Shown in pieces: positions 1 to 11,297 of a stretch of 11,297 nucleotides of DNA (positions are counted from its first letter, which is position 1; the number at the start of each line of letters is the position of its first letter). The DNA is from Actinomycetota bacterium (lineage in GTDB: Bacteria; Actinomycetota; Humimicrobiia; Humimicrobiales; Humimicrobiaceae): NCBI GenBank assembly GCA_022865545.1, contig JALHTA010000204.1, positions 1-11,297 on the forward strand, given 5' to 3'. Under the pieces are notes generated by a model. That model had not been told where the DNA came from and ran no database searches. It was given only the letters and a program-made list of their open reading frames with translations. Both the position numbers and the translations under genes were made by a program.

Positions 1-303
1 AAAGAAGTCGATAAAACCACCATTATGATCAGCATGATGGTGCGTAAAAAAGAGATGGGATATCTGGGTATGTTGAATACCTGCCATAATAAGTTTGTTT
101 AATACCCCATTTCCGCAATCGATTAAAAAAGTTTTATCTCCTGCCAGAAGGGCGCTTGCCGCTTTTGAGCGGGAATATCCGCTTAAGGGATTACCGGTTC
201 CAAGGAGTATCCATTTCATAGATACTGGATCGTTTTTAAGAGGATTTATGATAAGTCCATCAAATGGTTTACTCTGGGAGTGTTTTATGTTTTCTACTCT
301 CAT
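1..303 (-). CDS. Metallo-beta-lactamase-fold hydrolase, N-terminal part (cut by window edge)
   Basis: An open frame runs from an ATG at 303 (minus strand) to the window edge, giving 101 codons with no stop. The decoded protein has a beta-strand/Gly segment at residues 32-39 (ILLGTGNP), a strand ending in Asp at 59-64 (FLIDCG) and, at 87-96, THHHADHNGG. This is the HxHxDH zinc-binding signature of the metallo-beta-lactamase superfamily (H88, H90, D92, H93). The pattern resembles the RNase Z/arylsulfatase-like branch, but that is only family-level evidence and the remaining ligands lie outside the window. A GGAAGTGA ribosome site overlaps the stop of the RuBisCO-like gene 7 bases upstream, so the gene is probably translated from the same mRNA. 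About 28 residues precede the fold; an internal ATG at codon 29 is a possible alternative start. In this catabolic context a lactone or ester hydrolase is plausible but unproven. Confidence 0.85.
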   Translation of the reverse strand, partial: MRVENIKHSQSKPFDGLIINPLKNDPVSMKWILLGTGNPLSGYSRSKAASALLAGDKTFLIDCGNGVLNKLIMAGIQHTQISHLFFTHHHADHNGGFIDFF

Positions 304-310
304 ATTTACA

Positions 311-1597
311 TCACTTCCATTTATCCAGGGCTATTCTCAGAGCCTCGTTTCCCTTTTGTTTTGCAAGCTCATCTATATCAGTACCATCTGCAAGGGCTTT
401 AACAGTCTGCATTATAGCCTTTGCACCATGGGCCGGACCCATGGGATGTCCCAGGATCGCACCTCCGACTGCAAGCATTATTTCACTGCCCAGGTCAACA
501 GTTATCCTTCTTGCACTATTCGGGGTTATCCCTCCACCGATAAGCGGCATAGTGGGAAGGACGTCATATAATGGAAGCCTTTGTGCATCAGCGATCTGGA
601 AATATCTTCTTTTAAGGAAAGGATAAGTACTGTAGGGTGAGCTGAACATGCATACATCTGCTCCAGCGATCCTTGCAAGTTTTCCAAGCATCAGGGGAGT
701 TGATATTCCCGTATAAGGGGACTCTGACATTGCACCTACACTGGCATAATGAGCTACCAGTGGAACAGTAATAGCAGGATCTTCGGCCAGAGCCTGAAGT
801 GCTCCCAGTCCTGTCGCCACAAAGTTTACTAAAAGTGCTCCTGCTCCTGCATCTACCGCACGATGTGCGTGCTCTATCATCTTATCCTGCCGGTCCGTTA
901 TATTGACACAATACCTGGCAAGATGCCCCGTTTCCTTCTCTACCTCTCTTGCTGCTTTAGTATAGCTTTTTACCCTTTCAACTAATGGGCCATAAGATGT
1001 GTCTGCAAATAGTTCATCATCCTTTATAAGATCTATGCCACCGGATGCGATCTCTTTAAATATCATTGCACCTTCACCAGGTGTATAACCGAGGCATGGT
1101 TTTATCATATTAAGTACTATTGGTCTTTTTTGGATCCCAAAATACTTATATAGGCGGTCAATTCCATAACGGGGACCCTTAAAATGACTTAAAAACTTTT
1201 TAGAAAATTTAAGATCTATAAGTTTTACCTGGGCCGAGGTAGAGACATCATTTCCAAGAAGCGTAGTAAAGAGCATAGGAAATTGAGCACCAAAGTTTTC
1301 ATCAGGAAATGCGATCTGGATAATATGTGCTGTTTCTTCAGGAACATCACCAGTTAATTCTGCCGGGGGGATATCATAGATCGCAGTAATGCGCCCACCA
1401 TATTTTTTTCTCATTTCATTTGTTATGCCCGGTACGGGAAGCCAGGTTCCAAGTGTCTGGCCGATAGCAAAAGATTTTGCTTTTTCATATATGTCAGCAT
1501 CTTTTGTTGATCTGAAAAAATAGGAGGCAATTATATAGTCGCCTTCATAAGTTTCTTCTGGTAAAGCTAAGGGTTGGATGTTTTCTTCTTTATTCAT
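311..1597 (-). CDS. RuBisCO-like protein (form IV-type, RuBisCO large-subunit superfamily)
   Basis: This 428-residue protein has the RuBisCO large-chain layout: an N-terminal domain to about residue 140, then the TIM-barrel catalytic domain. By alignment of recognisable motifs, the first active-site lysine is kept (IKPCLG, K166, equivalent to K175). So are the carbamate lysine and acidic metal ligands (GGIDLIKDDE: K192, D194, E195, equivalent to K201/D203/E204). The phosphate-binding glycines near 378-379 (VGGAILGHPMG) and N116 and T51/W52 also remain. Several residues needed for CO2 fixation are replaced: K177 by C168, R295 by Y284 (in VAHYAS), H327 by Ser near 319-320, S379 by G354, and the E60 position by Gly; no loop-6 lysine is seen. 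It should therefore bind Mg2+ and do enolisation-type chemistry on a sugar-derived substrate, not carboxylate ribulose bisphosphate. Known RLP jobs include methionine salvage and isoapionate-phosphate breakdown; which applies here is not decidable. Start ATG is preceded by GAGGAG overlapping the upstream stop, which suggests translational coupling. Confidence 0.93.
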   Translation of the reverse strand: MNKEENIQPLALPEETYEGDYIIASYFFRSTKDADIYEKAKSFAIGQTLGTWLPVPGITNEMRKKYGGRITAIYDIPPAELTGDVPEETAHIIQIAFPDENFGAQFPMLFTTLLGNDVSTSAQVKLIDLKFSKKFLSHFKGPRYGIDRLYKYFGIQKRPIVLNMIKPCLGYTPGEGAMIFKEIASGGIDLIKDDELFADTSYGPLVERVKSYTKAAREVEKETGHLARYCVNITDRQDKMIEHAHRAVDAGAGALLVNFVATGLGALQALAEDPAITVPLVAHYASVGAMSESPYTGISTPLMLGKLARIAGADVCMFSSPYSTYPFLKRRYFQIADAQRLPLYDVLPTMPLIGGGITPNSARRITVDLGSEIMLAVGGAILGHPMGPAHGAKAIMQTVKALADGTDIDELAKQKGNEALRIALDKWK

Positions 1598-1606
1598 TTA
1601 CTCTCC

Positions 1607-2917
1607 TCAGTAAATCTTTTCTATCTCTTCTCTTAAGATTTTTACCCAGTTAATAATATTATCCGGATTTTTCCCCAGAGTGTGATTATCCTTCATTATT
1701 ATTTCCACAACACAACCTTTTGTCTTTTTAAGGAAATCGTTGATCTTTTGCCTGATAATTTCTTTATCTATTACTGGCACTGCAAGGACAGCAGGATTAG
1801 GTTTTAAGGAAAATACATAATCATCCTTTAAATTTTCTGCCATTATTTCCAGGTCGGACCATGGGGATACTGAGACCCGTCTCAGGTTTGGTATTCTCTT
1901 TACGATTTCCCATCGCTTATCCAGGGGCTCACAGCACCCATAGCAATTAAGCCCGAATCTTTCAAGCAGGGGTAATTGATAGGGAAAGACAAATTCTTCA
2001 AACATCTGGGGGGACACACTTCCTGTTTCCTGGCTATCACCAAACCCCCACATATCAATTGTCCTGACATGTTCCTTACTAAATCCTTTGGCAGGCAATT
2101 CATCTGTATACCCGAATCCACCAGAGCCGACATAGGTATCAGCATTTAGCGAAAGGAGTCCCTTTTCTTCCAGATAATCTAATTTCGTTAATGTTCCATC
2201 CCTGAGTATAGACATCAGTTGATGGATAAGTTTCGGATTATCAAGCATGTCCAGCATAATATTTTCCAGACCCCTCAAAAACGCGAGGTCCATAGTTAGT
2301 CCAAGTGTCCACCACCATCTGCCGACAAGTCTTATTTTTAACTGGTCCCCGAATATATCATCAGCAATTGCAATGGTATCTTCAGTAGTCTTATGATCTA
2401 CTTTTATTCTGGGATAATGAATTTTTTTCACATCGTGAGTATTCTTAACCGGGGCCTCCCAGACATAAGAACCTCCTCCTGTGCCACCTGATACCAGGGA
2501 ATCCAAACCCCATCCATCATCTGTAAAAGTATATCCTATATCAAAATATGGCTCGGTCACCTTATCATCTTTGATGGACTCCACCCAGAAGATCTCTTTT
2601 CTCAGCACAGCCTCCCATCTTCTTGCAAGGCTGCCGGTGCATTCTATTTTGTTTTCTGTGACTATCTCATTCCAACCATTTTCCGGATCACAAAAGACAA
2701 CCGGTCTTTTAGTTTTAAGCATATCATGGTCTGTCCATAGTTTTCTTTTTTCATCTTCTGCGGGGGAACTGGCAAATTCTGCCACCCTGGCCGCAAGACC
2801 TTTTAGTATTTCCTTATCCTTTTTATTGATGGATAGTTCTTGTCTTTTTGCAGCATTAAATTTTGGTGTACTGCCATAATCTGAGACATTCCACAGGCCT
2901 GTTGCGTTTTCAACCAT
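1607..2917 (-). CDS. Uroporphyrinogen decarboxylase (URO-D) family protein
   Basis: This 436-residue protein looks like the large, divergent URO-D-superfamily proteins of anaerobes rather than the roughly 350-residue HemE. It has an N-terminal extension of about 100 residues with many charged residues, a Trp/Gly-rich middle (GTGGGSYVWE at 146-155, GRWWWTLGL at 199-207), and a C-terminal barrel half with YGCCEP at 326-331 and GCVVEI at 401-406. In cobamide-dependent methyltransferases of this superfamily (MtaA/MtbA type), zinc is bound by an HxC motif plus a later Cys. Here C325/C328/C329 with C402 or H412 could play that part, although the usual His is a Tyr. No haem genes lie nearby, so a haem role is unlikely. 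No corrinoid protein is in the window either. Its neighbours (RLP 9 bases downstream, TIM-barrel isomerase upstream) point to carbon-compound catabolism. ATG start with GGGAG 8 bases upstream. Confidence 0.82.
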   Translation of the reverse strand: MVENATGLWNVSDYGSTPKFNAAKRQELSINKKDKEILKGLAARVAEFASSPAEDEKRKLWTDHDMLKTKRPVVFCDPENGWNEIVTENKIECTGSLARRWEAVLRKEIFWVESIKDDKVTEPYFDIGYTFTDDGWGLDSLVSGGTGGGSYVWEAPVKNTHDVKKIHYPRIKVDHKTTEDTIAIADDIFGDQLKIRLVGRWWWTLGLTMDLAFLRGLENIMLDMLDNPKLIHQLMSILRDGTLTKLDYLEEKGLLSLNADTYVGSGGFGYTDELPAKGFSKEHVRTIDMWGFGDSQETGSVSPQMFEEFVFPYQLPLLERFGLNCYGCCEPLDKRWEIVKRIPNLRRVSVSPWSDLEIMAENLKDDYVFSLKPNPAVLAVPVIDKEIIRQKINDFLKKTKGCVVEIIMKDNHTLGKNPDNIINWVKILREEIEKIY

Positions 2918-2945
2918 TTAAAAGTCTCCCTGTTTTATGGTAATA

Positions 2946-2991
2946 AAAATAGCACCCATTTCTTAATTATATATGAAAAAGGTGCTATTTT
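2946..2991 (-). terminator. Hairpin between TIM-barrel and URO-D genes; attenuator, processing site or weak terminator
   Basis: Perfect 11-bp inverted repeat (AAAATAGCACC at 2946-2956, GGTGCTATTTT at 2981-2991) with a 24-nt AT-rich loop. In minus-strand RNA the stem ends in UUUU and runs into U-A-U-U, so it resembles an intrinsic terminator with an unusually large loop and a short U tract. It sits in the only sizeable gap (86 bases) of the left operon. It could lower expression of the URO-D/RLP/MBL genes relative to the first gene, or protect the end of the first cistron. Confidence 0.55.
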
Positions 2992-3003
2992 ATTAAAAAA
3001 TAA

Positions 3004-3846
3004 TTAAATAATATTTCTTAGCCACTCTACACTTTTCTGCATATTCTCATCGGTTCCGCTGCATTCTACGGAGACTTCGCCATCCCATTTAGTCTCATTT
3101 AAATATTCAATAACCTTTTTGATATTATCAGCATTTACTCCTCCTCCAACAAATGCTTCACTCATAGCTATACCGGTTTCTTCGCCACGGACCGCAGCAG
3201 CAAGCTCAGCTGTTACATCTTTTATATGGCAGTGAGTCAGATACTTACGGAGAGGTTTTAAAACATCCAGAGGTTCCTGGCCGGATATATAGGTATTACC
3301 CGTATCAAGACAAAATCCTAGATATTCTGATTCAAAATGGGAGAAAAGCTTCAGCATAAACTCTACATCATTTGTAAGGGCACCATGGGTTTCAACATTG
3401 ACTATTATTTTAAAATCTTCCGCCCATTTAAGGAGTTCCGTATAATTCTTTACTGCGATCTTAAATGCTTCATCTTTGGTCATGCCATCTTCGATTATTG
3501 CGCTGTCTGTAGTATCCACCTTTTTCGCACCCAGGTCGCTTGCAAATCTTATTGCCTGTTGGGTATAGAAAACGCCTCTCATCGTTCCCATATTGCCCAT
3601 CATCGGGGAAGCCGAGTCTATTTGAGAAACAGGCATTCCCTTGCTTTCCGTAAACTTCCTGATCTGTATGGGATTATCCCACAAAGAGACAGAAGGTTCA
3701 TAACCCAGAGCCTGGACAAAATAAATACCGTAAATCACTCCAAATTCGATATGCTCCAGTTTGTTCTTGGCACCCAGCTCCACACCAGCTTCAAAAGAAC
3801 CGCTTAAAGTCCTGAGATTGTCTGTGTGCATCCCTAATCTTATCAT
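3004..3846 (-). CDS. Sugar phosphate isomerase/epimerase-like TIM-barrel protein (xylose isomerase-like superfamily)
   Basis: The 280-residue length and order of motifs match the AP-endonuclease-2/xylose-isomerase-like family, which handles sugars, keto-sugars and related acids with a divalent metal. The four expected metal ligands are present in the expected order: E152 (NVETHG), D181 (CLDTGN), H207 (HCHIKD) and E261 (SVECSG). A typical GGGVNADNI phosphate/loop segment follows at 234-242, before the last barrel helix. The start ATG has AGGAGGG 8-9 bases upstream, and it is the first gene of the left operon, about 200 bases from the inferred promoter. Family members include isomerases, epimerases, dehydratases and decarboxylases, so the exact reaction cannot be told from these motifs. 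The context of an RLP and a sugar importer suggests it acts on the imported compound or an early intermediate. Confidence 0.88.
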   Translation of the reverse strand: MIRLGMHTDNLRTLSGSFEAGVELGAKNKLEHIEFGVIYGIYFVQALGYEPSVSLWDNPIQIRKFTESKGMPVSQIDSASPMMGNMGTMRGVFYTQQAIRFASDLGAKKVDTTDSAIIEDGMTKDEAFKIAVKNYTELLKWAEDFKIIVNVETHGALTNDVEFMLKLFSHFESEYLGFCLDTGNTYISGQEPLDVLKPLRKYLTHCHIKDVTAELAAAVRGEETGIAMSEAFVGGGVNADNIKKVIEYLNETKWDGEVSVECSGTDENMQKSVEWLRNII

Positions 3847-4010
3847 CGTTGACCCTCCTATTTTTTAATGATTGTGAATAAAAATCCTCAAGTACTATTG
3901 TATTGCTTAAAATGTATTATCGAAATGATTTTTATTTTTGAGTAAATGCTTTTAATTAATAGTGCTACTGAAATATACAATTGACCCTCAAAACTTTTCA
4001 ATGATAAAAA

Positions 4011-4024
4011 ATTCAATATTGAAT
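4011..4024. promoter_or_regulatory. 14-bp perfect palindrome in the minus-operon leader
   Basis: ATTCAATATTGAAT is a perfect palindrome about 20-33 bases downstream of the inferred minus-strand transcription start. It could be a second operator acting as a roadblock. In AT-rich DNA a palindrome of this size may also arise by chance, and no second copy was found. Confidence 0.3.
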
Positions 4025-4050
4025 ATAAAATCTCATGAAAAATCTAGCAC

Positions 4051-4079
4051 ATTATCACATAATAAAGAATTTATGTCAA
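4051..4079 (-). promoter_or_regulatory. Sigma70-type promoter of the left (RLP/URO-D) operon
   Basis: Read on the minus strand, TTGACA (4079-4074) is followed after exactly 17 bases by GATAAT (4056-4051), with the extended -10 dinucleotide TG one base before it. The -35 box is a perfect consensus and the -10 is 5 of 6. Inferred start of transcription is about 4044, giving a leader of about 200 nt. The -35 box ends 8 bases from the left edge of the operator palindrome, so a bound regulator could touch polymerase here (activation) or block it. Confidence 0.75.
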
Positions 4080-4087
4080 TACTTTGA

Positions 4088-4107
4088 ACGTATGTCTGGA
4101 CATACGT
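4088..4107. promoter_or_regulatory. Palindromic operator, copy 1
   Basis: Two perfect 9-bp arms, ACGTATGTC and GACATACGT, flank a 2-base TG centre. The even symmetry suggests a dimeric helix-turn-helix regulator. The centre (4097/4098) lies at the plus-strand -35 box, the usual place for a repressor; relative to the minus promoter it is near -53. The regulator family cannot be named from the site, and no regulator gene is in the window. Confidence 0.85.
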
Positions 4108-4125
4108 ATTTTAATATGTTAATAT
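4097..4125 (+). promoter_or_regulatory. Sigma70-type promoter of the sugar ABC transporter operon
   Basis: TGGACA (4097-4102), 17-base spacer, TAATAT (4120-4125), with an extended -10 TG at 4117-4118. The -35 box is inside the right half of the operator. The predicted start is near 4132, which leaves an unusually long leader of about 230 nt before the ATPase ATG. Confidence 0.78.
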
Positions 4126-4362
4126 AATTTTAATTTGAATATTGATCGGTTAAATTTTATACACGCTTAGTTGTGAATTAAATGTCAAAAATTAAAGGCT
4201 GACTGATGGTGGTGGATAATTTAGTGATCTTGTATTAAAATTATAGAGGGTCGACTTTTGAGGGATAAAAAATCTATATTACTAATTAATAATAATTTCA
4301 CGAAGAAATTCTCTTATTTTCCGCACAGTTGGATGAAGACTATATTGTAGGAGGTAAATCAT

Positions 4363-5853
4363 ATGCCCGAACACTTGATTCTTGAAATGAAAAATATCTG
4401 TAAAGCATTTCCGGGTGTAAAAGTTTTTGATTGTTTTGGATTTGATCTGAGGGAAGGTGAGATCCATTGTGTAGTAGGTGAAAATGGTGCCGGTAAATCG
4501 ACTCTTATTAAGATGTTTTCGGGAGCCCACACACCAGATGATGGAGATATCTATCTTGATGGAGAACTGGTCAAAATACCAGATCCGCGTTCTGCCATGC
4601 AGCTGGGAATCCAGACAATATATCAGGAGCATACACTTTTTCCATTCTTAAGTGTCATGGAAAATCTCTATGCAGGTAATGAGATCTCTAATGGAGTCAC
4701 TTTAAACAGAAGAGAGATGATCAAAAAAACCAGTGGCATACTGGAAGACCTCCACTCAAATATAGATCCGTTGGATATAGTTGGACAACTTGGTAGTGGT
4801 GACCAGAAGACTGTGGAAATAGCAAGAGGTCTGCTTCAGGAATCAAGGATCGTCATACTTGATGAACCTACATCATCTTTTTCCCAGACTGAGATAGATC
4901 ACTTGCTCAGTATTATTAAGAAACTCTCTGAAGATGGGATAAGCATTATCTATATTTCCCACCATCTGGAAGAGGTATTTAAAATAGCAGACAGAGTAAC
5001 AGTTATACGGGACGGGATCAAGATAAATACATATGGATCTGAGGATATTACTGAACAAAAGTTGATAAATGATATGGTCGGTCGCGATGTCTCACTTTTC
5101 TACAAGAGAGATAAAGTACCCATTGGTGATGTCTTGTTTGAAGTTAAGGATTTAAAAGGTAATGGAGTCAAAAATGCATCTTTTTCTGTTAGAAGAGGCG
5201 AGTTAGTAGGAATAGCAGGCATGGTAGGCTCAGGAAGAACTGAACTTGCACAAATACTGTTTGGAGCCAGGAAGGTGGATTCAGGGGAGATCATAATAGG
5301 CGGGAAAAAGGTCAATATCAAGACACCCCTTTCTGCTATTACTAATAATATGTGTTATATTACCGAGGACCGGCAGGAAACAGGTCTTTTCCTACAGCAT
5401 TCTCTTGACAAGAATATTCCCATAGCCAGTTACACACAAACAACAACACCTTTTGCTATACCAGGTGAAGACATAAGACTTACACAAAAATATATTGATC
5501 TACTAAAAATTATAACACCAAGTGTATTCCAACAGGTCATGTTTCTTTCTGGTGGGAACCAGCAGAAAGTAGTTTTGGGAAAATGGTTCGCTACTGATGC
5601 TGACATTTTTATTTTCGATGAACCAACAAGGGGTATAGATGTAGGTTCTAAAGAAGAGATATATAGGATTACTGTAGACCTGCTGCGCCAGGAAAAAGCT
5701 GTGATCATGATTTCCTCCGATATGCCTGAACTAATTGCTATGAGTGATAAGGTAATGGTAATGAGAAACGGAAGCATGGTAGAGGAAATTACAAAAGATC
5801 AAATAAGTGAAGAAAATATACTTAAACACTCGATTGGAGGAAGCATTAAATGA
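4363..5853 (+). CDS. Sugar ABC importer, double-domain ATP-binding protein (RbsA/MglA/XylG family)
   Basis: This 496-residue cytoplasmic ATPase powers import of a sugar-like solute. It has two fused nucleotide-binding domains, as in the carbohydrate-uptake-type-2 family. Domain 1 has Walker A GENGAGKST (39-47), Q-loop Q88, a degenerate signature LGSGDQ (143-148) and Walker B ILDEP with catalytic E168. Domain 2 has the family's usual degenerate Walker A (MVGSGRTE, 287-294), a proper signature LSGGNQQ (395-401) and FDEPTRGID with E420. Length and domain order are normal. ATG is preceded by AGGAGGT at ideal spacing, and the gene overlaps the permease by 4 bases (ATGA), so the two are translationally coupled. 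The substrate is not shown by the ATPase. Confidence 0.95.
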   Translation: MPEHLILEMKNICKAFPGVKVFDCFGFDLREGEIHCVVGENGAGKSTLIKMFSGAHTPDDGDIYLDGELVKIPDPRSAMQLGIQTIYQEHTLFPFLSVMENLYAGNEISNGVTLNRREMIKKTSGILEDLHSNIDPLDIVGQLGSGDQKTVEIARGLLQESRIVILDEPTSSFSQTEIDHLLSIIKKLSEDGISIIYISHHLEEVFKIADRVTVIRDGIKINTYGSEDITEQKLINDMVGRDVSLFYKRDKVPIGDVLFEVKDLKGNGVKNASFSVRRGELVGIAGMVGSGRTELAQILFGARKVDSGEIIIGGKKVNIKTPLSAITNNMCYITEDRQETGLFLQHSLDKNIPIASYTQTTTPFAIPGEDIRLTQKYIDLLKIITPSVFQQVMFLSGGNQQKVVLGKWFATDADIFIFDEPTRGIDVGSKEEIYRITVDLLRQEKAVIMISSDMPELIAMSDKVMVMRNGSMVEEITKDQISEENILKHSIGGSIK

Positions 5854-6884
5854 GATCTACAAATCCGTTTAGAAAAATCACCAAGCATGAGAATTTGCCT
5901 CTTTTCCTGGTACTTCTGGTTATTATTGTTGTAGTAATTTTGGTAGAATTTTTTACGGTGAGAAGCATGAATATTACCACGGTAGCATTCATTAAACCTA
6001 TGAATATCTCAAATGTTCTTCTGCAGGTATCTGTAACAGGGATGTTGGCTCTTTCGATGACATTTATCATGATCTCGGGACAAATCGACTTATCCGTCGG
6101 CCAGATGATGTGTTTTATCGGTACTGGAATGGCATTCTTAATAAAGACTGTAGGAATTAATGAATGGGGAGCAGCAGCTATTGCTATTGTAGTAACAGTA
6201 ATGTTCCAACTCATAATGGGTCTTATCATCTCGAGGACCAGGCTGGAGTCATTCATAGTATCCCTGGGCTTTTTGAGTATATACCGCGGTTTTACATATC
6301 TCATCACAAATGGCAGGGAGATCACCACTGAAGGAAGATTCACCTTCCTGGGGAGGACCTATCTTGACCTTACAGATAATTTCAGGATCGCCATGCCGGT
6401 AATAATATTCATAGCGCTTACTCTAATCGTATGGTTTTTACTCAGGTATACAAAATTTGGCCGGAGGGTATATGCTGTAGGAGGAAATGAGAATGCAGCA
6501 TATCTTGCTGGTATTAATGTAAAGAATTTTAGATTACTGCTATATGGAATTAATGGTGTTTTTATTGCCATTGCAAGCATGACACAGTTATCCAGGCTGG
6601 GTGTAGGAAGTCCGCTTATGGGTGAAGGTAAGGAGATCGAAGTAATAGCTGCCGTAGTTGTCGGCGGTGTTGCCCTGGTTGGAGGCAGGGGAAATGCATG
6701 GGGTACCTTTATCGGGGTACTACTGCTTGGTATTATATCCAATGCACTTAATATTCTTGGTGTTAGCCCGCACTACCAGTATGTAATGAGAGGACTACTT
6801 ATAATCTTTGCCGTATCACTGACATATTTTAGTAGTTTAAGAGCTTCATCTGTCAAAATACAGATAAAGGAGGGTCAAGAGTAA
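5850..6884 (+). CDS. Sugar ABC importer permease (RbsC/MglC/XylH family)
   Basis: This 344-residue integral membrane protein forms the transport channel, probably as a homodimer. Hydrophobic spans are evident around residues 17-36, 60-76, 83-98, 108-127, 182-198, 230-246, 263-278, 284-302 and 310-328. Family signatures are present: SGQIDLSVGQ (76-85), the ATPase-contacting loop GGNENAAYLAGINV (211-224), and GGRGNAWGTFIGVLLLG (278-294). The ATG lies within the stop of the ATPase gene (4-base overlap). A short charged C-terminus follows the last span. Nothing looks broken. Confidence 0.95.
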   Translation: MRSTNPFRKITKHENLPLFLVLLVIIVVVILVEFFTVRSMNITTVAFIKPMNISNVLLQVSVTGMLALSMTFIMISGQIDLSVGQMMCFIGTGMAFLIKTVGINEWGAAAIAIVVTVMFQLIMGLIISRTRLESFIVSLGFLSIYRGFTYLITNGREITTEGRFTFLGRTYLDLTDNFRIAMPVIIFIALTLIVWFLLRYTKFGRRVYAVGGNENAAYLAGINVKNFRLLLYGINGVFIAIASMTQLSRLGVGSPLMGEGKEIEVIAAVVVGGVALVGGRGNAWGTFIGVLLLGIISNALNILGVSPHYQYVMRGLLIIFAVSLTYFSSLRASSVKIQIKEGQE

Positions 6885-6896
6885 AGTATAAAAAAT

Positions 6897-6934
6897 GCAT
6901 CATAACTATGATGCGACAGTTTCCTGCTAGGAAA
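6897..6934 (+). other. Two tandem RNA hairpins between permease and binding-protein genes
   Basis: Hairpin 1: GCATCAT (6897-6903), loop AACT, ATGATGC (6908-6914), a perfect 7-bp stem. Hairpin 2: TTTCCT (6920-6925), loop GCT, AGGAAA (6929-6934), a 6-bp stem. No U tract follows, so this is not a terminator. Such structures commonly mark processing or stabilising points that let the binding protein be made in excess over the membrane parts. That function here is inferred. Confidence 0.6.
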
Positions 6935-6969
6935 AATGTAAAAGGTAAAATATAAAAGGAGGGAAAGTT

Positions 6970-8088
6970 ATGTTAAAGAAGCTATTAATTGTTGTAATGT
7001 GTATAGCTTTACTGGGCTTCATCGGTGTAGGTTGTAAAACAGAAGCAGCCCCGGATGAGGAAGCCATGGAAGAAGAAACAGCCGCTGGAGTCGATCTTAC
7101 TGGCGTAAAAATCGGATTTGTAAACGCAGGTCCAGATGACTATTATGCTCAGTTTGGTAATACCTTTAAGGCCATCGCAGAGGATTACGGTATGGACGTT
7201 ACTGAACTTAACTCTGACTATAAGCCAGAGCAAGAATTAGCTAATGTCCAGGATCTTATTGCAAAAGGTGTTGAAGCCATAGCAGTTATTACTGCAGGTG
7301 CTGAAGGTAGTGCAGCAACTATTGAAGCTGCTAATGATGCAGGCGTACCAATATTCTTTATTGCTGGTAAACCTGCTATTACATCGGGTACTGATCTTGC
7401 AGGACACGTTACAGATAACTTTGTTATCATGGGTTATCAGGTCGGTAAATGGGTTATAGATAATGTTGAAGATCCAGTTGCTGTAAACATACCAGGATTC
7501 CTGGGACAGGGACCAGCTGAAGGCGAGATCGTAGGTTTCGACCTTGCTTTTACAGAAGCCGGATTGGAATCACCATTCCTGACTGCAAGTTCAGAATGGC
7601 AAAGGACTCTTGCTATTCCTATCACTCAGGACCTCGTAATATCAGGTAGGGAATTTAATGTACTGTTTGCATGTAATGAAGAAACAGCCGCAGGTGTTCT
7701 CACTGTATTTGAAGAGCAAAATGTGACTGGTGTAACATTAGTATCATGTAATGGTAAGGAAGAGGGTTGGGCCTGGTTGGAATCAGGTCAAATGTCTGCA
7801 ACATCACCTAATCCGCCATCACTAAATGCTGACATTTCTGTTCAGCAGATAGTAAGGCAACTCTCAGGTGAAGACTTCCTACAGTATCTGCAGATAATGC
7901 CCTGGGACGTACTTACAAAGGATAATCTTGATAAGGCTATTCCATGGATCACAGCAGATTATCTTGCAGGCCGTACAGCTAATGAGTTCCAGTGGGATCT
8001 AGCATTCTATGAAAAAGCTTATACAGATAACGCGGATGTCTTCGTAGATTTTGATGCTAAGCTTGTTGAATATCTAGCAAATAGTTAA
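6970..8088 (+). CDS. Sugar ABC importer substrate-binding lipoprotein (periplasmic binding protein type 1, RbsB-like fold)
   Basis: This 372-residue protein has a lipoprotein signal: Lys3-Lys4, a hydrophobic stretch (5-20) and a candidate lipidated Cys22 in IGVGC. The -3 residue is Gly, so the lipobox is off consensus for most bacteria; looser boxes occur in spirochaetes. A short acidic linker (about 27-41) leads to a two-lobed binding domain starting near residue 44 with GVKIGFVNAG and DDYYAQ. KGVEAIAVITAG and AGVPIFFIAG are the usual strands of the Peripla_BP_4 family. The ligand should be a sugar or sugar-like molecule, but binding residues are not conserved enough to name it. ATG follows AAAGGAGGG. 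It is the last gene of the transporter operon, after the ATPase and permease, and is followed by a strong terminator. Confidence 0.93.
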   Translation: MLKKLLIVVMCIALLGFIGVGCKTEAAPDEEAMEEETAAGVDLTGVKIGFVNAGPDDYYAQFGNTFKAIAEDYGMDVTELNSDYKPEQELANVQDLIAKGVEAIAVITAGAEGSAATIEAANDAGVPIFFIAGKPAITSGTDLAGHVTDNFVIMGYQVGKWVIDNVEDPVAVNIPGFLGQGPAEGEIVGFDLAFTEAGLESPFLTASSEWQRTLAIPITQDLVISGREFNVLFACNEETAAGVLTVFEEQNVTGVTLVSCNGKEEGWAWLESGQMSATSPNPPSLNADISVQQIVRQLSGEDFLQYLQIMPWDVLTKDNLDKAIPWITADYLAGRTANEFQWDLAFYEKAYTDNADVFVDFDAKLVEYLANS

Positions 8089-8097
8089 ATATCGCAT

Positions 8098-8143
8098 GGT
8101 TTAATTAGCAGGGAACATAGCTAACTAGCTATAGCAATAAACC
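8098..8143 (+). other. Nested hairpin in the 3' untranslated region of the transporter mRNA
   Basis: An outer pair GGTTTA (8098-8103)/TAAACC (8138-8143) encloses an inner hairpin ATAGCT (8117-8122), loop AACT, AGCTAT (8127-8132). It begins 10 bases after the binding-protein stop and precedes the terminator. It may protect the mRNA end. The inner loop sequence AACT is the same as in the hairpin at 6897-6914. Confidence 0.45.
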
Positions 8144-8155
8144 AGTGATTCGCTG

Positions 8156-8194
8156 ATATATAGCCTGTAGGTTTTCCTGCAGGCTATATATTTT
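8156..8194 (+). terminator. Rho-independent terminator of the transporter operon
   Basis: A 16-bp stem (8156-8171 with 8176-8191, one G-U pair) with a TTTT loop; the core is TAGCCTGTAGG/CCTGCAGGCTA. It runs directly into TTTT then CTGT. It separates the transporter operon from the second operator-promoter copy 50 bases further on. Confidence 0.9.
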
Positions 8195-8245
8195 CTGTGA
8201 TCTTTATTTCCATATGATCTATGTAAAAAATATAAAACCAGATGA

Positions 8246-8265
8246 ACGTATGTCTGGACATACGT
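8246..8265. promoter_or_regulatory. Palindromic operator, copy 2
   Basis: Identical to the operator at 4088-4107: arms ACGTATGTC and GACATACGT around a TG centre. It covers the -35 box of the promoter in front of the formyltransferase operon, so the two plus-strand operons should respond to the same regulator. Confidence 0.87.
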
Positions 8266-8283
8266 ATTTATATATGCTAATAT
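8255..8283 (+). promoter_or_regulatory. Sigma70-type promoter of the formyltransferase/PEP-hydrolase/Tm-1 operon
   Basis: TGGACA (8255-8260), 17-base spacer, TAATAT (8278-8283), extended -10 TG at 8275-8276. The predicted start near 8290 gives a leader of about 60 nt, far shorter than the leader of the transporter operon with the same promoter. Confidence 0.8.
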
Positions 8284-8350
8284 AAAATACATCATACCAT
8301 TGATTAAAGACTCTTATTATTGTTCTAGCTGAGGGTTAACGGGAGAAGCA

Positions 8351-9274
8351 GTGGATAAGAATATCAGAAAAAAAAGGATAATATTCTTTGGTTCAGAAGA
8401 AATGGACTTCACCAGCAGGCATCTAGATCATTTCCTAAAATTTGACCCTAATATAGTGGGCTTTGTAGTCGATACCCGTGGGGTCCGTTCAACTACAGTA
8501 AGTAAGTCAAGTGCCTTTAAGGATATTATAAAAGTCGCTGAAGAAAAAGATGTGCCTGTGTTTAATCCTGAGACAGTAAAAAATACAGGTCTTGTTGATG
8601 ATTTAAAGAAACTTGATCCGGATGTCTTTATAGTATGCGGCTACCAGTTCTTCCTTCCCGGGGAAATAATAGATATACCTCCAATGGGAACCCTTAATTT
8701 TCATGCTTCACTTTTACCAAGGCATTCAGGAATGCATCCCGGCTTCTGGACAATATATTATGGTGATAAATTTTCGGGAATGGTAATACATTTTATGGAT
8801 GAAGGCATAGACACAGGAGATATCGCCTACCGCTCAAAAATACCTGTAAATTCCGGAGACAATATCGAGGTCCTGTATAAAAGGATCTATGAGACCTGCC
8901 CGGGCCTTATAAAACAATTGATGATAGATATGGAAAATAACACAATTCCAAGGACACCTCAAAACTATTCAGACTATATATATAATTACGAGATCACCGG
9001 TAAAGATTTTGAACTTGATTTCAGGCAGCCTGCCGAGATTCTTATGGGCAGGATAAAGATGCTCCCCGGGAAATTTTATTTTGTCCTGGATGGAGAGAAA
9101 TATTTTGTAGAGGATTGTATGGTTTTTAAAGAACATGTCGATACCAGAAAATTTGAAACAGGGAAGCCATACCGACTAGATGACAAAACATTTTTTGTTA
9201 CTCCAAGGAGCTTTATTGAAATCACCCGTGCAGAAAAAGATGGACAGAAAGTCGATCTATTAAGTCTAATATAA
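8351..9274 (+). CDS. Formyltransferase-family protein (Fmt/ArnA-N-like, 10-formyl-tetrahydrofolate type)
   Basis: This 307-residue protein has an N-terminal Rossmann-like formyltransferase domain (about 8-195) and a smaller beta-rich C-terminal domain (about 215-305), like methionyl-tRNA formyltransferase and sugar N-formyltransferases. The catalytic triad is intact: N116 and H118 in NFHASLLPR, and D154 in DEGIDTGD; the SLLP folate-site motif is at 120-123. The nucleotide-like N-terminal motif reads FFGSEEMDF instead of the usual form of Fmt. There is no peptide deformylase gene beside it, and it sits under the operator shared with the transporter, so it is probably not the housekeeping Fmt. 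It could move a formyl group to or from folate during breakdown of the imported compound. The start is GTG, with GGGAG 5 bases upstream; no ATG fits better. Confidence 0.85.
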   Translation: MDKNIRKKRIIFFGSEEMDFTSRHLDHFLKFDPNIVGFVVDTRGVRSTTVSKSSAFKDIIKVAEEKDVPVFNPETVKNTGLVDDLKKLDPDVFIVCGYQFFLPGEIIDIPPMGTLNFHASLLPRHSGMHPGFWTIYYGDKFSGMVIHFMDEGIDTGDIAYRSKIPVNSGDNIEVLYKRIYETCPGLIKQLMIDMENNTIPRTPQNYSDYIYNYEITGKDFELDFRQPAEILMGRIKMLPGKFYFVLDGEKYFVEDCMVFKEHVDTRKFETGKPYRLDDKTFFVTPRSFIEITRAEKDGQKVDLLSLI

Positions 9275-9343
9275 TAAGTATGTTTTATATAAATTGAGTA
9301 TTTAAACTGTAAAGATTTAAACAATATTCAGGGAGAAGTGATC

Positions 9344-10189
9344 ATGATAAAAAGAACCAGAGAAGAAATAATTGCGGGAATGAGGGATAAGATAAAAAAT
9401 AAAAAACCTATTGCAATGGGAAGCTGTGGAACTGGACTTACTGCAAAGCTTCTGGAAAAAGCTGGTTTTGATGCAGTTTCCCCATTTGGCGGCGGAAAAC
9501 TGAGGAGTAATGGATGGGGCTCCATGTATCAATATTGGCCAGTATATGATGCCAATGGAGAGCTCTATAATCTTTGCACGCAGAGTATTATTCCAATACT
9601 TAAAGGTGATGCATTTGTGCTGGCCTGCATCAATGGCAATGATCCGAACAGGGATATGGGTTTTTTCCTCCAGCAGCTAAAAGATGCTGGTGTTATGGGA
9701 GTCCTAAATGTCCCCTCCATAACTGCCTACGACAAGGATAGTGAGATATACCAGATATTGACCCAGAGCGGCATAACTCTGGAACAGGAGATCAAGGTTC
9801 TAGCAGAAGCCAGGGAGATGGGACTAATAACAGCTACTATGCCCTTTGATATTGAAGATAGTCTAAAGACCATAAAAGAAGCCGATGTAGATATATTTTG
9901 CTTCCATGCCGGCACCACCAAGGGCGGGCTTATAGGGTTTGATACAAAATCCACATTGGAAGATACAGCAAATAGGACTGAAGAAGCAAACAGGGAAGCT
10001 TTAAAGATTAATTCTGATTTGATCCTTTTAAGCCATGGAGCATCTCTGGTAACCCCTGAGGATGGACAGTATATCATGGATAATACCTCATGCCATGGCG
10101 TATTTACCGGCTCTGCCACAGAAAGGATCCCCATTGAAAATGCAATAATGGATATTGCCGGAAAGTTTGCAAATTTGAAAATGAAATAA
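9344..10189 (+). CDS. Phosphoenolpyruvate-hydrolase-like TIM-barrel protein (Tm-1 C-terminal-domain family)
   Basis: This 281-residue protein matches the family called 'phosphoenolpyruvate hydrolase' or 'TIM-barrel signal transduction protein', whose true reaction is poorly established. Family signatures are present: SCGTGLTAKLLEKAGFD (27-43), DPNRDMGFFLQQLKDAGVMG (100-119), NVPSI (122-126), HAGTTKGG (188-195) with the following LIGF, HGASLVTPED (231-240), and FTGSATER (254-261). An in-frame GTG six bases earlier (9338) lies only 2 bases after GGGAG; the ATG at 9344 sits 8 bases from it and is the better start. It lies 69 bases after the formyltransferase with no terminator between, and directly before the Tm-1 partner gene. 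In plants and fungi the two families are fused in one protein, so they probably act together. Confidence 0.88.
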   Translation: MIKRTREEIIAGMRDKIKNKKPIAMGSCGTGLTAKLLEKAGFDAVSPFGGGKLRSNGWGSMYQYWPVYDANGELYNLCTQSIIPILKGDAFVLACINGNDPNRDMGFFLQQLKDAGVMGVLNVPSITAYDKDSEIYQILTQSGITLEQEIKVLAEAREMGLITATMPFDIEDSLKTIKEADVDIFCFHAGTTKGGLIGFDTKSTLEDTANRTEEANREALKINSDLILLSHGASLVTPEDGQYIMDNTSCHGVFTGSATERIPIENAIMDIAGKFANLKMK

Positions 10190-10242
10190 ATTTAAAAAAT
10201 ATTTTTAAGTATATTTATAAAAAAGGAAGAGGGGTGTCAAAA

Positions 10243-11297
10243 ATGAAAAAAAAGATCATTATCCTGGGGTGCATGGATACAAAGGGACAGGAGTATGCAT
10301 TCATAAAAGATATAATCGAGAAGGCTGGCTGCGATACTCTTTTGATCGATGTAGGGGTAATAAACCCGCCAATGTTCAAGCCTGATATAACCAGGCAAGA
10401 AGTTGCCAAAGCTGCAGGCAAAGACTTTGACCAACTGATAAAAGATGGACCTACGCGTGACAAGATCGCTCCTATTATGACCGAGGGGGCAAAGAAAATA
10501 GTAGTAGGTCTGGTAAAAGATAAAAAAGCCGATGGTATAATCGCCCTTGGCGGAACACAAGGCACATCACTTGCCACAGATGCTATGAGGGAACTTCCAG
10601 TAGGGTTTCCAAAGGTCATGGTATCCACAATGGCCTCAGGAGACACATTTAAATTCGTAGGACTCCGTGACATAACGATGATGAACTCTGTAGCCGATAT
10701 TATGGGTCTAAACAGGGTAACAAGGAAAATACTTGCCAATGCTGCAGGAGCCATATGCGGTATGGTAGGAGTGGATAAGGATTCAGTAGTGACTGATAAG
10801 CAGCTTATTGCCATTACAACTGTTGGAGTTACAACTCCCGGAGCCATGGCAGCTAAAAAGGTGCTTGAAGATGCCGGATATGAGACTGTAGTATTCCACG
10901 CAGTAGGTACAGGCGGACAAGCAATGGAGCAACTGGTAAAAGAAGGAGATATAAAGGGTCTACTTGATATAGCTACAGTTGAAGTAATAAACCAGATGCT
11001 TGGAGGATTTCTTGCCGCTACTCCTGAAAGGATGACAGTGGCCACAGAGATGGGCATACCCCAGGTAATCTGCCCGGGAGCTATAGGAGATGTAGTCTTT
11101 GGACCACCCGAAGATATACCAGAAAAATTTAAAGGCAGGGCATATGCTATTCACAGCTCACTGTTTACATGCGTTAGGACTACAGCCGAAGAGGTAAGAG
11201 CGCTTGCCATAGAACAGGCAAAGAGGGTGAATCCAGCTAAAGGGCCGGTAGAATGGTTTATTCCGATGAAAGGTTTCTGTTCCCACTCTGTTGAAGG
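10243..11297 (+). CDS. Tm-1-like / UPF0261 family protein (incomplete at the window end)
   Basis: An open frame runs from ATG at 10243 to the window edge: 351 whole codons, no stop. It matches the UPF0261 (Tm-1-like ATP-binding) family: LGCMDTKGQE at 8-17 (usually LGT-DTKG-E), ALGGTQGTSLAT (101-112), MVSTMASGDT (126-135), DITMMNSVADIMGLN (143-157), VFHAVGTGGQAMEQL (217-231), GGFLAATPER (254-263), CPGAIGDVVFG (277-287), and the C-terminal PMKGFCSHS (341-349). Family proteins are about 400 residues, so roughly 50 residues are missing. GAGGGG lies 8 bases before the ATG; an in-frame GTG at 10234 overlaps that site and is less likely. It is 53 bases after the PEP-hydrolase-like gene and probably in the same operon. 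The N-terminal fold binds ATP in tomato Tm-1; its bacterial reaction is not known to me. Confidence 0.9.
   Translation, partial: MKKKIIILGCMDTKGQEYAFIKDIIEKAGCDTLLIDVGVINPPMFKPDITRQEVAKAAGKDFDQLIKDGPTRDKIAPIMTEGAKKIVVGLVKDKKADGIIALGGTQGTSLATDAMRELPVGFPKVMVSTMASGDTFKFVGLRDITMMNSVADIMGLNRVTRKILANAAGAICGMVGVDKDSVVTDKQLIAITTVGVTTPGAMAAKKVLEDAGYETVVFHAVGTGGQAMEQLVKEGDIKGLLDIATVEVINQMLGGFLAATPERMTVATEMGIPQVICPGAIGDVVFGPPEDIPEKFKGRAYAIHSSLFTCVRTTAEEVRALAIEQAKRVNPAKGPVEWFIPMKGFCSHSVE

Follow-up and report, generated by a model that had tools for sequence, protein, structure and literature searches.

The contig JALHTA010000204.1 of an Actinomycetota bacterium raises the question of whether ten genes packed around a RuBisCO-like protein (RLP) and a Tm-1-like protein serve one pathway or several. 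We analysed this contig in full (C91 in our numbering; 11297 bases, hereafter the window), which belongs to a 2.13 Mb assembly of 487 contigs rated 92% complete, and set it against the 35 genomes, its own among them, placed in the host's family, Humimicrobiaceae. To our knowledge, many RLPs have no known reaction. An initial annotation had read the window as a candidate catabolic system of seven families, including RLP, a URO-D-family protein, an isomerase, a formyltransferase and Tm-1; parts of this set turned up as separate modules in sister genomes, and conservation of the whole set was not supported. The window is not a conserved seven-family pathway; it is a real island that holds an RLP from an uncharacterised clade and an assembly-unique palindrome. 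We tentatively regard it as a composite regulon through which this Humimicrobiaceae actinobacterium would break down a single sugar-like compound after import, a reading that we find quite possible while stopping short of confidence in it. Four things were observed: the genes, the two assembly-unique palindromes, the clade and residues of the RLP, and a recurrent RLP-Tm-1 neighbourhood. From these we infer the pathway chemistry.

Recurrent RLP-Tm-1 neighbourhoods

To ask how often the two arms of the window occur together elsewhere, we surveyed RLP loci comprising the best 80 of 228 matched named loci plus stretches from relatives' genomes, and sought Tm-1 and its partner, a PEP_hydrolase-like TIM barrel (PEPH), with several query sequences; some loci were short in all three sets (RLP, control and URO-D). 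Tm-1 lay near the RLP in 41 of 81 loci and PEPH in 31 of 81, with the best Tm-1 match on the RLP strand in 39 of those 41 and a median gap of 1747 nt. Tm-1 was present in 1 of 20 control loci around other RLPs or RuBisCOs and in none of 11 URO-D loci, and the RLP-Tm-1 neighbour pairs span several phyla. Cultured bacteria in which the two genes are adjacent include Petroclostridium sp. X23 (L015) and Clostridium magnum (L038). Across the 35 family genomes, an RLP of at least 60% identity occurred in 11 (one as a fragment), Tm-1 in 12 and both in 7, giving a Fisher p of 0.019 that ignores kinship and the incompleteness of metagenome-assembled genomes. A search of open-licence papers returned none linking RLPs to Tm-1.

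The earlier expectation that left and right arms travel together stood in part: it held for RLP with Tm-1 and PEPH, but a tblastn search of the RLP loci at E<=1e-8 found no homologue of the window's URO-D-like, PF01261 or formyltransferase protein. PF01261 proteins of more distant kinship lie near the RLP in L106 and in L003, the locus of Candidatus Humimicrobium oleiphilum. Gene order at L106 runs importer-PEPH-Tm-1, a divergent MFS gene, and then RLP-TIM-MBL-PF01261-PEPH-amidohydrolase-PEPH, the MBL gene beside the RLP-TIM pair being 58% identical to the window's MBL fragment; L064 reads importer-MBL-Tm-1-RpiB-TIM-aldolase-GntR-RLP, all in one direction. TIM, RpiB, amidohydrolase, MBL, ComB and DeoR genes recur as RLP neighbours; of 46 RLP loci of the window type, 30 have TIM and 25 have RpiB. 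Sugar importers and phosphotransferase system (PTS) permeases stand beside members of the RLP clade. This neighbourhood hints at an undescribed breakdown route for a sugar-like compound. The pairing, together with its substrate-side hints (sugar importers, PTS, TIM, RpiB and aldolase), makes the functions of both proteins testable with few purified proteins.

Two side observations concern RLP loci. L021, L053 and other Syntrophomonadaceae-type loci carry an operon of RLP-PEPH-ComB-like phosphatase-Tm-1-PEPH, with a glycerol-3-phosphate antiterminator-like gene (PF04309) present at six loci. Arylsulfotransferase-like genes lie near the RLP in L040, L060 and L074, forming a cluster of five members in these three loci (PF05935, assigned from one scanned copy).

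Gene content, control and movable modules

Gene calls and family models confirmed the ten genes, their positions and their families, with two reservations: the URO-D match falls under the Pfam cut-off, and the 'isomerase' was called from PF01261 only. The left arm lies on the minus strand and consists of an MBL-fold hydrolase reduced to its N-terminal 101 aa (1..303; PF00753, 34.5 bits), the RLP, predicted to be of enolase/isomerase type (311..1597; PF00016, 133.7 bits), a divergent URO-D-like protein with a YGCCE motif (1607..2917; PF01208, 16.4 bits, cut-off 23.9) and a PF01261 protein with a xylose-isomerase-like TIM barrel, which may be an isomerase or a 3-keto-sugar eliminase/dehydratase (3004..3846; 82.6 bits). 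On the plus strand follow a sugar-type (CUT2-like) ABC transporter ATPase (4363..5853; PF00005; 500.4 bits against the AraG model, whose cut-off is 689), an ABC permease (5850..6884; PF02653, 152.6 bits) and a sugar-type binding protein (6970..8088; PF13407, 90 bits). The right operon then comprises a formyltransferase-family protein (8351..9274; PF00551, 113.6 bits), PEPH, also named TBST (9338..10189; PF09370, 202.6 bits against a cut-off of 33.8), and the UPF0261/Tm-1-like protein, recognised by both Pfam domains and by fold and lacking its C-terminus (10234..11295). The MBL gene on the left and the Tm-1 gene on the right are cut by the contig ends. No sugar kinase, aldolase or dehydrogenase is visible in the window, as had been noted; because the contig ends at the window edges, such genes may lie beyond them. 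An Rfam scan of the window gave no RNA family at the gathering threshold.

A 20-bp palindrome, ACGTATGTCTGGACATACGT, occurs in two exact copies within a 62-nt repeat of 81% identity, one between the divergent genes (4088..4107) and one upstream of the formyltransferase unit (8246..8265), and each is an operator candidate. No third site was found in the 92% complete assembly with up to 3 mismatches, the reversed pattern gave 0 matches, and none of 200 shuffled windows reached as many palindrome matches. When the palindrome core GTATGTCNGGACATAC was sought without mismatch in 229 fetched loci, only four pieces of the window itself were returned. Beside copy 1 lies a leftward promoter-like site (4051..4079, minus strand; TTGACA-17-GATAAT, 11/12, with TG before the second hexamer), and a rightward site has its -35 box within that copy (4097..4125, plus strand; TGGACA-17-TAATAT, 9/12); a further rightward site of the same composition and score overlaps copy 2 (8255..8283, plus strand). 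Since 16.3 promoter-like sites (sd 4.6) are expected in the window and 25 were counted, any single hit is weak evidence. The overlap with -35 boxes and the near-consensus leftward site suggest, at the level of sequence, that a repressor controls all three units. The view of the window as one locally regulated unit held up, with the assembly-unique palindrome pair joining left arm, importer and right operon. An inverted repeat with 16-nt arms, 94% complementary, lies after the importer genes and before the formyltransferase gene (8156..8191); it received no terminator score in the terminator/promoter scan.

The importer and the PF01261 protein recur together. Orthologues of the latter were found at 80-83% identity in five genomes and at 60-63% in six more, and 6 of 12 fetched loci (L260-L264, L268) combine it with an ATPase, permease and binding protein like those of the window; all five loci of 80-83% orthologues have this importer type. 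The other six loci comprise four with PF01261 and no comparable importer, and two short contigs with importer genes and no PF01261. At four of the five close orthologue loci (L260, L261, L262 and L268; family scans on L260 only), the PF01261 gene has a Gfo/Idh/MocA gene and another gene of PF01261 type in its vicinity, whereas the stretch of the fifth, L263, stops short of this region. Because the set resembles that of levoglucosan elimination, the function of the window's PF01261 protein as an isomerase is doubtful. The Gfo/Idh/MocA protein of L260 scored 399.5 bits against the LGDH model, whose cut-off is 650. Among solved chains, those closest to the binding protein are of the ribose type (best E 1.5e-17); ribose was rejected as its ligand upon alignment to 2gx6, in which the Asp-Arg pair that we take to form the ribose site is replaced.

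The URO-D-like protein has 5423 relatives at E<=0.001 among 7999 scored proteins, and 4 of 120 listed relatives (P0125, P0126, P0136 and P0141) carry a precomputed PF01208 assignment; the YGCCE motif is invariant in an alignment of 29 rows. Importer genes lie nearby in 5 of 11 URO-D loci, and at L170 the gene is flanked by genes of the MFS and Gfo/Idh families and by an importer with an ATPase 56% like that of the window. Elsewhere, the URO-D-like protein is accompanied by a second PF01208 protein (L166, L169, L171), an L-fucose-isomerase-like protein (L168, L171), FGGY-like kinases (L168, L175, L176) or importer genes (in the set L166, L168, L169, L171, L175 and L176).

Orthologues of the formyltransferase at 48-50% identity were restricted to 2 of the 34 other family genomes (G010, G029), the remaining family matches reaching at most 33%. 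The protein falls below the NCBIfam cut-off for a methionyl-tRNA formyltransferase (Fmt model, 129.5 bits against 201.5). Both orthologues stand in an operon of formyltransferase-class II aldolase-lipoyl/E1 alpha-E1 beta-PEPH-Tm-1 (L164:1350-8268 and L165:534-7760; families scanned on L164), with PEPH 63% and Tm-1 63-64% identical to those of the window. Among the genes scanned there, which are part of those surrounding the operon, no separate E2 gene was found.

Reactions proposed for Tm-1/PEPH and the RLP

To compare the occurrence of Tm-1 with that of PTS permeases and FGGY kinases, we required a flank of 8 kb or more, which removed 10 of 86 RLP loci and left 76. Tm-1 without PTS/FGGY was present in 38 loci and PTS/FGGY without Tm-1 in 29, with 8 loci having neither and only one, L020, having both (raw Fisher p 1.2e-12). 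Given this near absence of overlap, Tm-1 may supply phosphorylation, and the analysis suggests that it takes the phosphorylating role in RLP loci. Carried further, Tm-1/PEPH would use ATP to activate its substrate, much as a small-molecule kinase does, and would stand in for PTS permeases and FGGY kinases in a family of RLP-based sugar pathways; we consider this stronger proposal unlikely. If it were true, both this RLP clade and the bacterial relatives of the plant antiviral protein Tm-1 would gain a catalytic role, none having turned up for either in the open-licence literature searched, and the window would be a fused, privately regulated version. An OiaK-like DUF1537 gene was considered as the missing kinase and set aside, with none found by one OiaK query in any of the 76 loci, the window included; the kinase search covered FGGY and OiaK families. 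None of the 50 structure matches listed for Tm-1 had a DUF1537-like fold, which excludes nothing.

In the composite regulon that we tentatively propose, one repressor, encoded outside the window, would act on the two identical operators, and binding of its ligand would free three units at once: the PF01261/URO-D/RLP/MBL arm, the importer and the formyltransferase/PEPH/Tm-1 arm. The sugar-type importer would take up the compound, and Tm-1/PEPH would activate it or a product of it at the expense of ATP. Phosphorylation is the simplest form of such activation, and at many related RLP loci without Tm-1 it could be carried out by PTS permeases or FGGY kinases. The RLP would then carry out a proton shift on a monophosphate as an enolase/isomerase, consistent with its retained metal-carbamate residues and K175 and its loss of K334 and E60. 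Isomerases of the triose- and pentose-phosphate types, together with a class II aldolase, would feed the products into central metabolism; such genes accompany RLPs at other loci and would here lie outside the contig, and the URO-D-like, PF01261 and formyltransferase proteins would prepare or trim the substrate.

Several observations weigh against this proposal. Once the RLP tree is taken into account, the exclusion between Tm-1 and PTS/FGGY reduces to 10 Tm-1 state changes, with 2-5 independent pairs changing in opposite ways and 0-1 in the same way (median p 0.25, an underpowered comparison). A solved UPF0261 relative, 9mpy, binds acetovanillone and not a sugar, and one OiaX locus with Tm-1 (L280) has its own kinase gene, oiaK. 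The L164 and L165 operons place Tm-1 with an E1-type thiamine diphosphate-dependent dehydrogenase and an aldolase, which a plain sugar kinase would not explain. The RLP-linked Tm-1s of the host's own family (L106, L003) are only 33-35% identical to that of the window, which instead groups with the Tm-1s of L164, L165 and L193, stretches without RLP (support 100, in a quick tree of 47 mostly RLP-linked rows that drew long-branch warnings). The RLP-Tm-1 link may thus have been re-made in the window with another Tm-1 branch, or both may merely share a control element. No regulator gene was found within the window, and both palindrome copies, each an 8-pair stem followed by a T-rich stretch, are among its 8 terminator-like sites (2.3 expected), so they may have a role at the RNA level, most of all copy 2 after the importer genes. 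The shared operator of the initial annotation accordingly stands as an exact, doubled, assembly-unique palindrome overlapping promoter-like -35 boxes, tempered by this second resemblance. The activity of every window protein is a prediction from sequence and context, and the chemistry is unproven.

The acetovanillone in 9mpy pointed to a further candidate. A two-component kinase of HpeHI type was rejected as an identity for the Tm-1 pair, HpeHI being an ATP-grasp plus swivel-domain enzyme, as stated in the available parts of PMC12167813 and PMC9618137, and not UPF0261. No literature on Saro_1862 was found among open-licence papers.

The main rival is a pile-up of modules, in which an importer/PF01261 cassette for 3-keto-sugar elimination and a formyltransferase/PEPH/Tm-1 operon came under one control element beside an RLP-MBL pair, with the RLP and Tm-1 pathways separate. 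We rate this as possible, if somewhat doubtful. The importer and PF01261 occur by themselves at the six loci noted above, with Gfo/Idh and further PF01261 genes in L260, and the formyltransferase-aldolase-E1-PEPH-Tm-1 operons and the grouping of the window Tm-1 with RLP-free operons favour the same view. The host genome itself carries a cluster of GH4, Gfo/Idh, PF01261 and ADH genes on contig C170 (G000:C170, L278), perhaps a 3-keto-sugar elimination pathway. Against it, a palindrome that the assembly holds at two places and no others points to a single signal and a single substrate, and RLP and Tm-1 are neighbours in several phyla. These comparisons present Humimicrobiaceae as building carbohydrate gene islands out of movable modules.

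The RLP is a form IV member of the RuBisCO superfamily, exceeding the PF00016 cut-off of 30.1 bits and having lost RuBisCO active-site residues. In a tree of 57 rows it falls in a clade of 25 rows with members from Actinomycetota, Chloroflexota and Bacillota (support 100/100); the solved MtnW chains 2zvi and 4nas lie outside it. Within this clade it pairs with the L106 RLP (support 92/96), at 70% identity the nearest among the fetched loci. One further relative, P0009, is 89% identical to the window RLP and carries the name Candidatus Mariimomonas, which is not an actinobacterium. Upon mapping onto a RuBisCO of the same phylum, with residues named as we take them to be numbered, the window RLP keeps the equivalents of K175, K201, D203, E204, H294 and N123, has E60 changed to Gly, K334 to Thr and K177 to Cys, and also has the R295 and H327 equivalents replaced; loss of the E60 and K334 equivalents is shared by its clade. 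Among 86 full-length RLPs, 51 combine Gly at E60 with no Lys at K334 and 35 combine Glu/Asp at E60 with Lys at K334. Because the loop-6 Lys (K334) is lost, a carboxylate-handling reaction is less likely, and an enolase/isomerase is a better guess from these residues than carboxylation or decarboxylation. Assignment as MtnW, OiaX or RuBisCO proper was ruled out by cut-offs, tree and residues.

Salvage of methionine or a 5-deoxysugar with an MtnW-like enolase appears improbable. The best NCBIfam match is indeed the MtnW model PRK09549 (325.9 bits), and three features match 2zvi, namely Gly at E60, a residue other than Lys at K334, and Lys at position 125; however, the scores lie below both MtnW cut-offs (409 for PRK09549, and 513.6 for a second model that gave 279.3 bits), the clade is apart from 2zvi and 4nas, N123 is kept where 2zvi has Lys, and the clade's neighbours are sugar importers and PTS permeases. 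More improbable still is an OiaX-kind decarboxylase in an apiose/isoapionate pathway, for although the TIM and RpiB neighbours would fit breakdown of L-erythrulose-1-phosphate, which uses EryH/EryI, the OiaX model gives 160.5 bits against a cut-off of 700, the K334 equivalent lost in the window clade is kept in the OiaX-like L198 and L199, and none of the 76 loci has an OiaK-like gene within 9 kb (one query).

Comparison with known systems

The full metabolic range of RLPs has been called unknown (PMC7325909, in the text available). Among known reactions, MtnW is the closest by model score, and the window RLP shares with it K166 (K175 in RuBisCO), the metal-carbamate residues K192/D194/E195, K125 and the loss of K334; it differs in falling under the cut-offs, in its clade, in keeping N116 and in its sugar-type neighbours. 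The OiaX/OiaK branch of D-apiose catabolism likewise uses an RLP in a sugar pathway, RLP activities on 3-oxo-isoapionate-4-phosphate being described in the accessible part of PMC6302742, and one OiaX/OiaK locus, L280, has a Tm-1; the window RLP differs by its low OiaX score, the absence of a loop-6 Lys and the absence of an OiaK-like kinase nearby. At L280, Tm-1 (L280:1763-3040) shares the locus with OiaX and OiaK, which score 549 and 532 bits and miss their cut-offs of 700 bits; a class II aldolase and a creatininase/IolN-like hydrolase are its neighbours.

In the levoglucosan pathway (LgdA, LgdB1, LgdB2 and LgdC), two proteins annotated as sugar phosphate isomerases take part, according to the available text of PMC7676230. 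The window resembles it in combining a sugar ABC importer with PF01261, to which sister genomes add a Gfo/Idh protein, and differs in having no Gfo/Idh gene, with the L260 protein also under the LGDH cut-off.

UPF0261 and TBST are reported to co-evolve, with 491 of 504 bacterial genomes that have TBST also having UPF0261 (PMC5028733, in the part available). No catalytic role for either was found in the open-licence literature searched, including the accessible portion of that paper. The window carries both families in adjacent genes, and differs in that the pair has an RLP and a sugar-type importer as neighbours, with a palindrome common to them all.

The RLP of Candidatus Hakubanella (clade UBA1414), whose description mentions neither Tm-1 nor PEPH in the text available, offers a last parallel, drawn from that description: it belongs to an early-branching actinobacterial clade, has a gene with an epimerase domain and a DeoR sensor domain in its vicinity, and has its function called unknown in the available text of PMC7325909.

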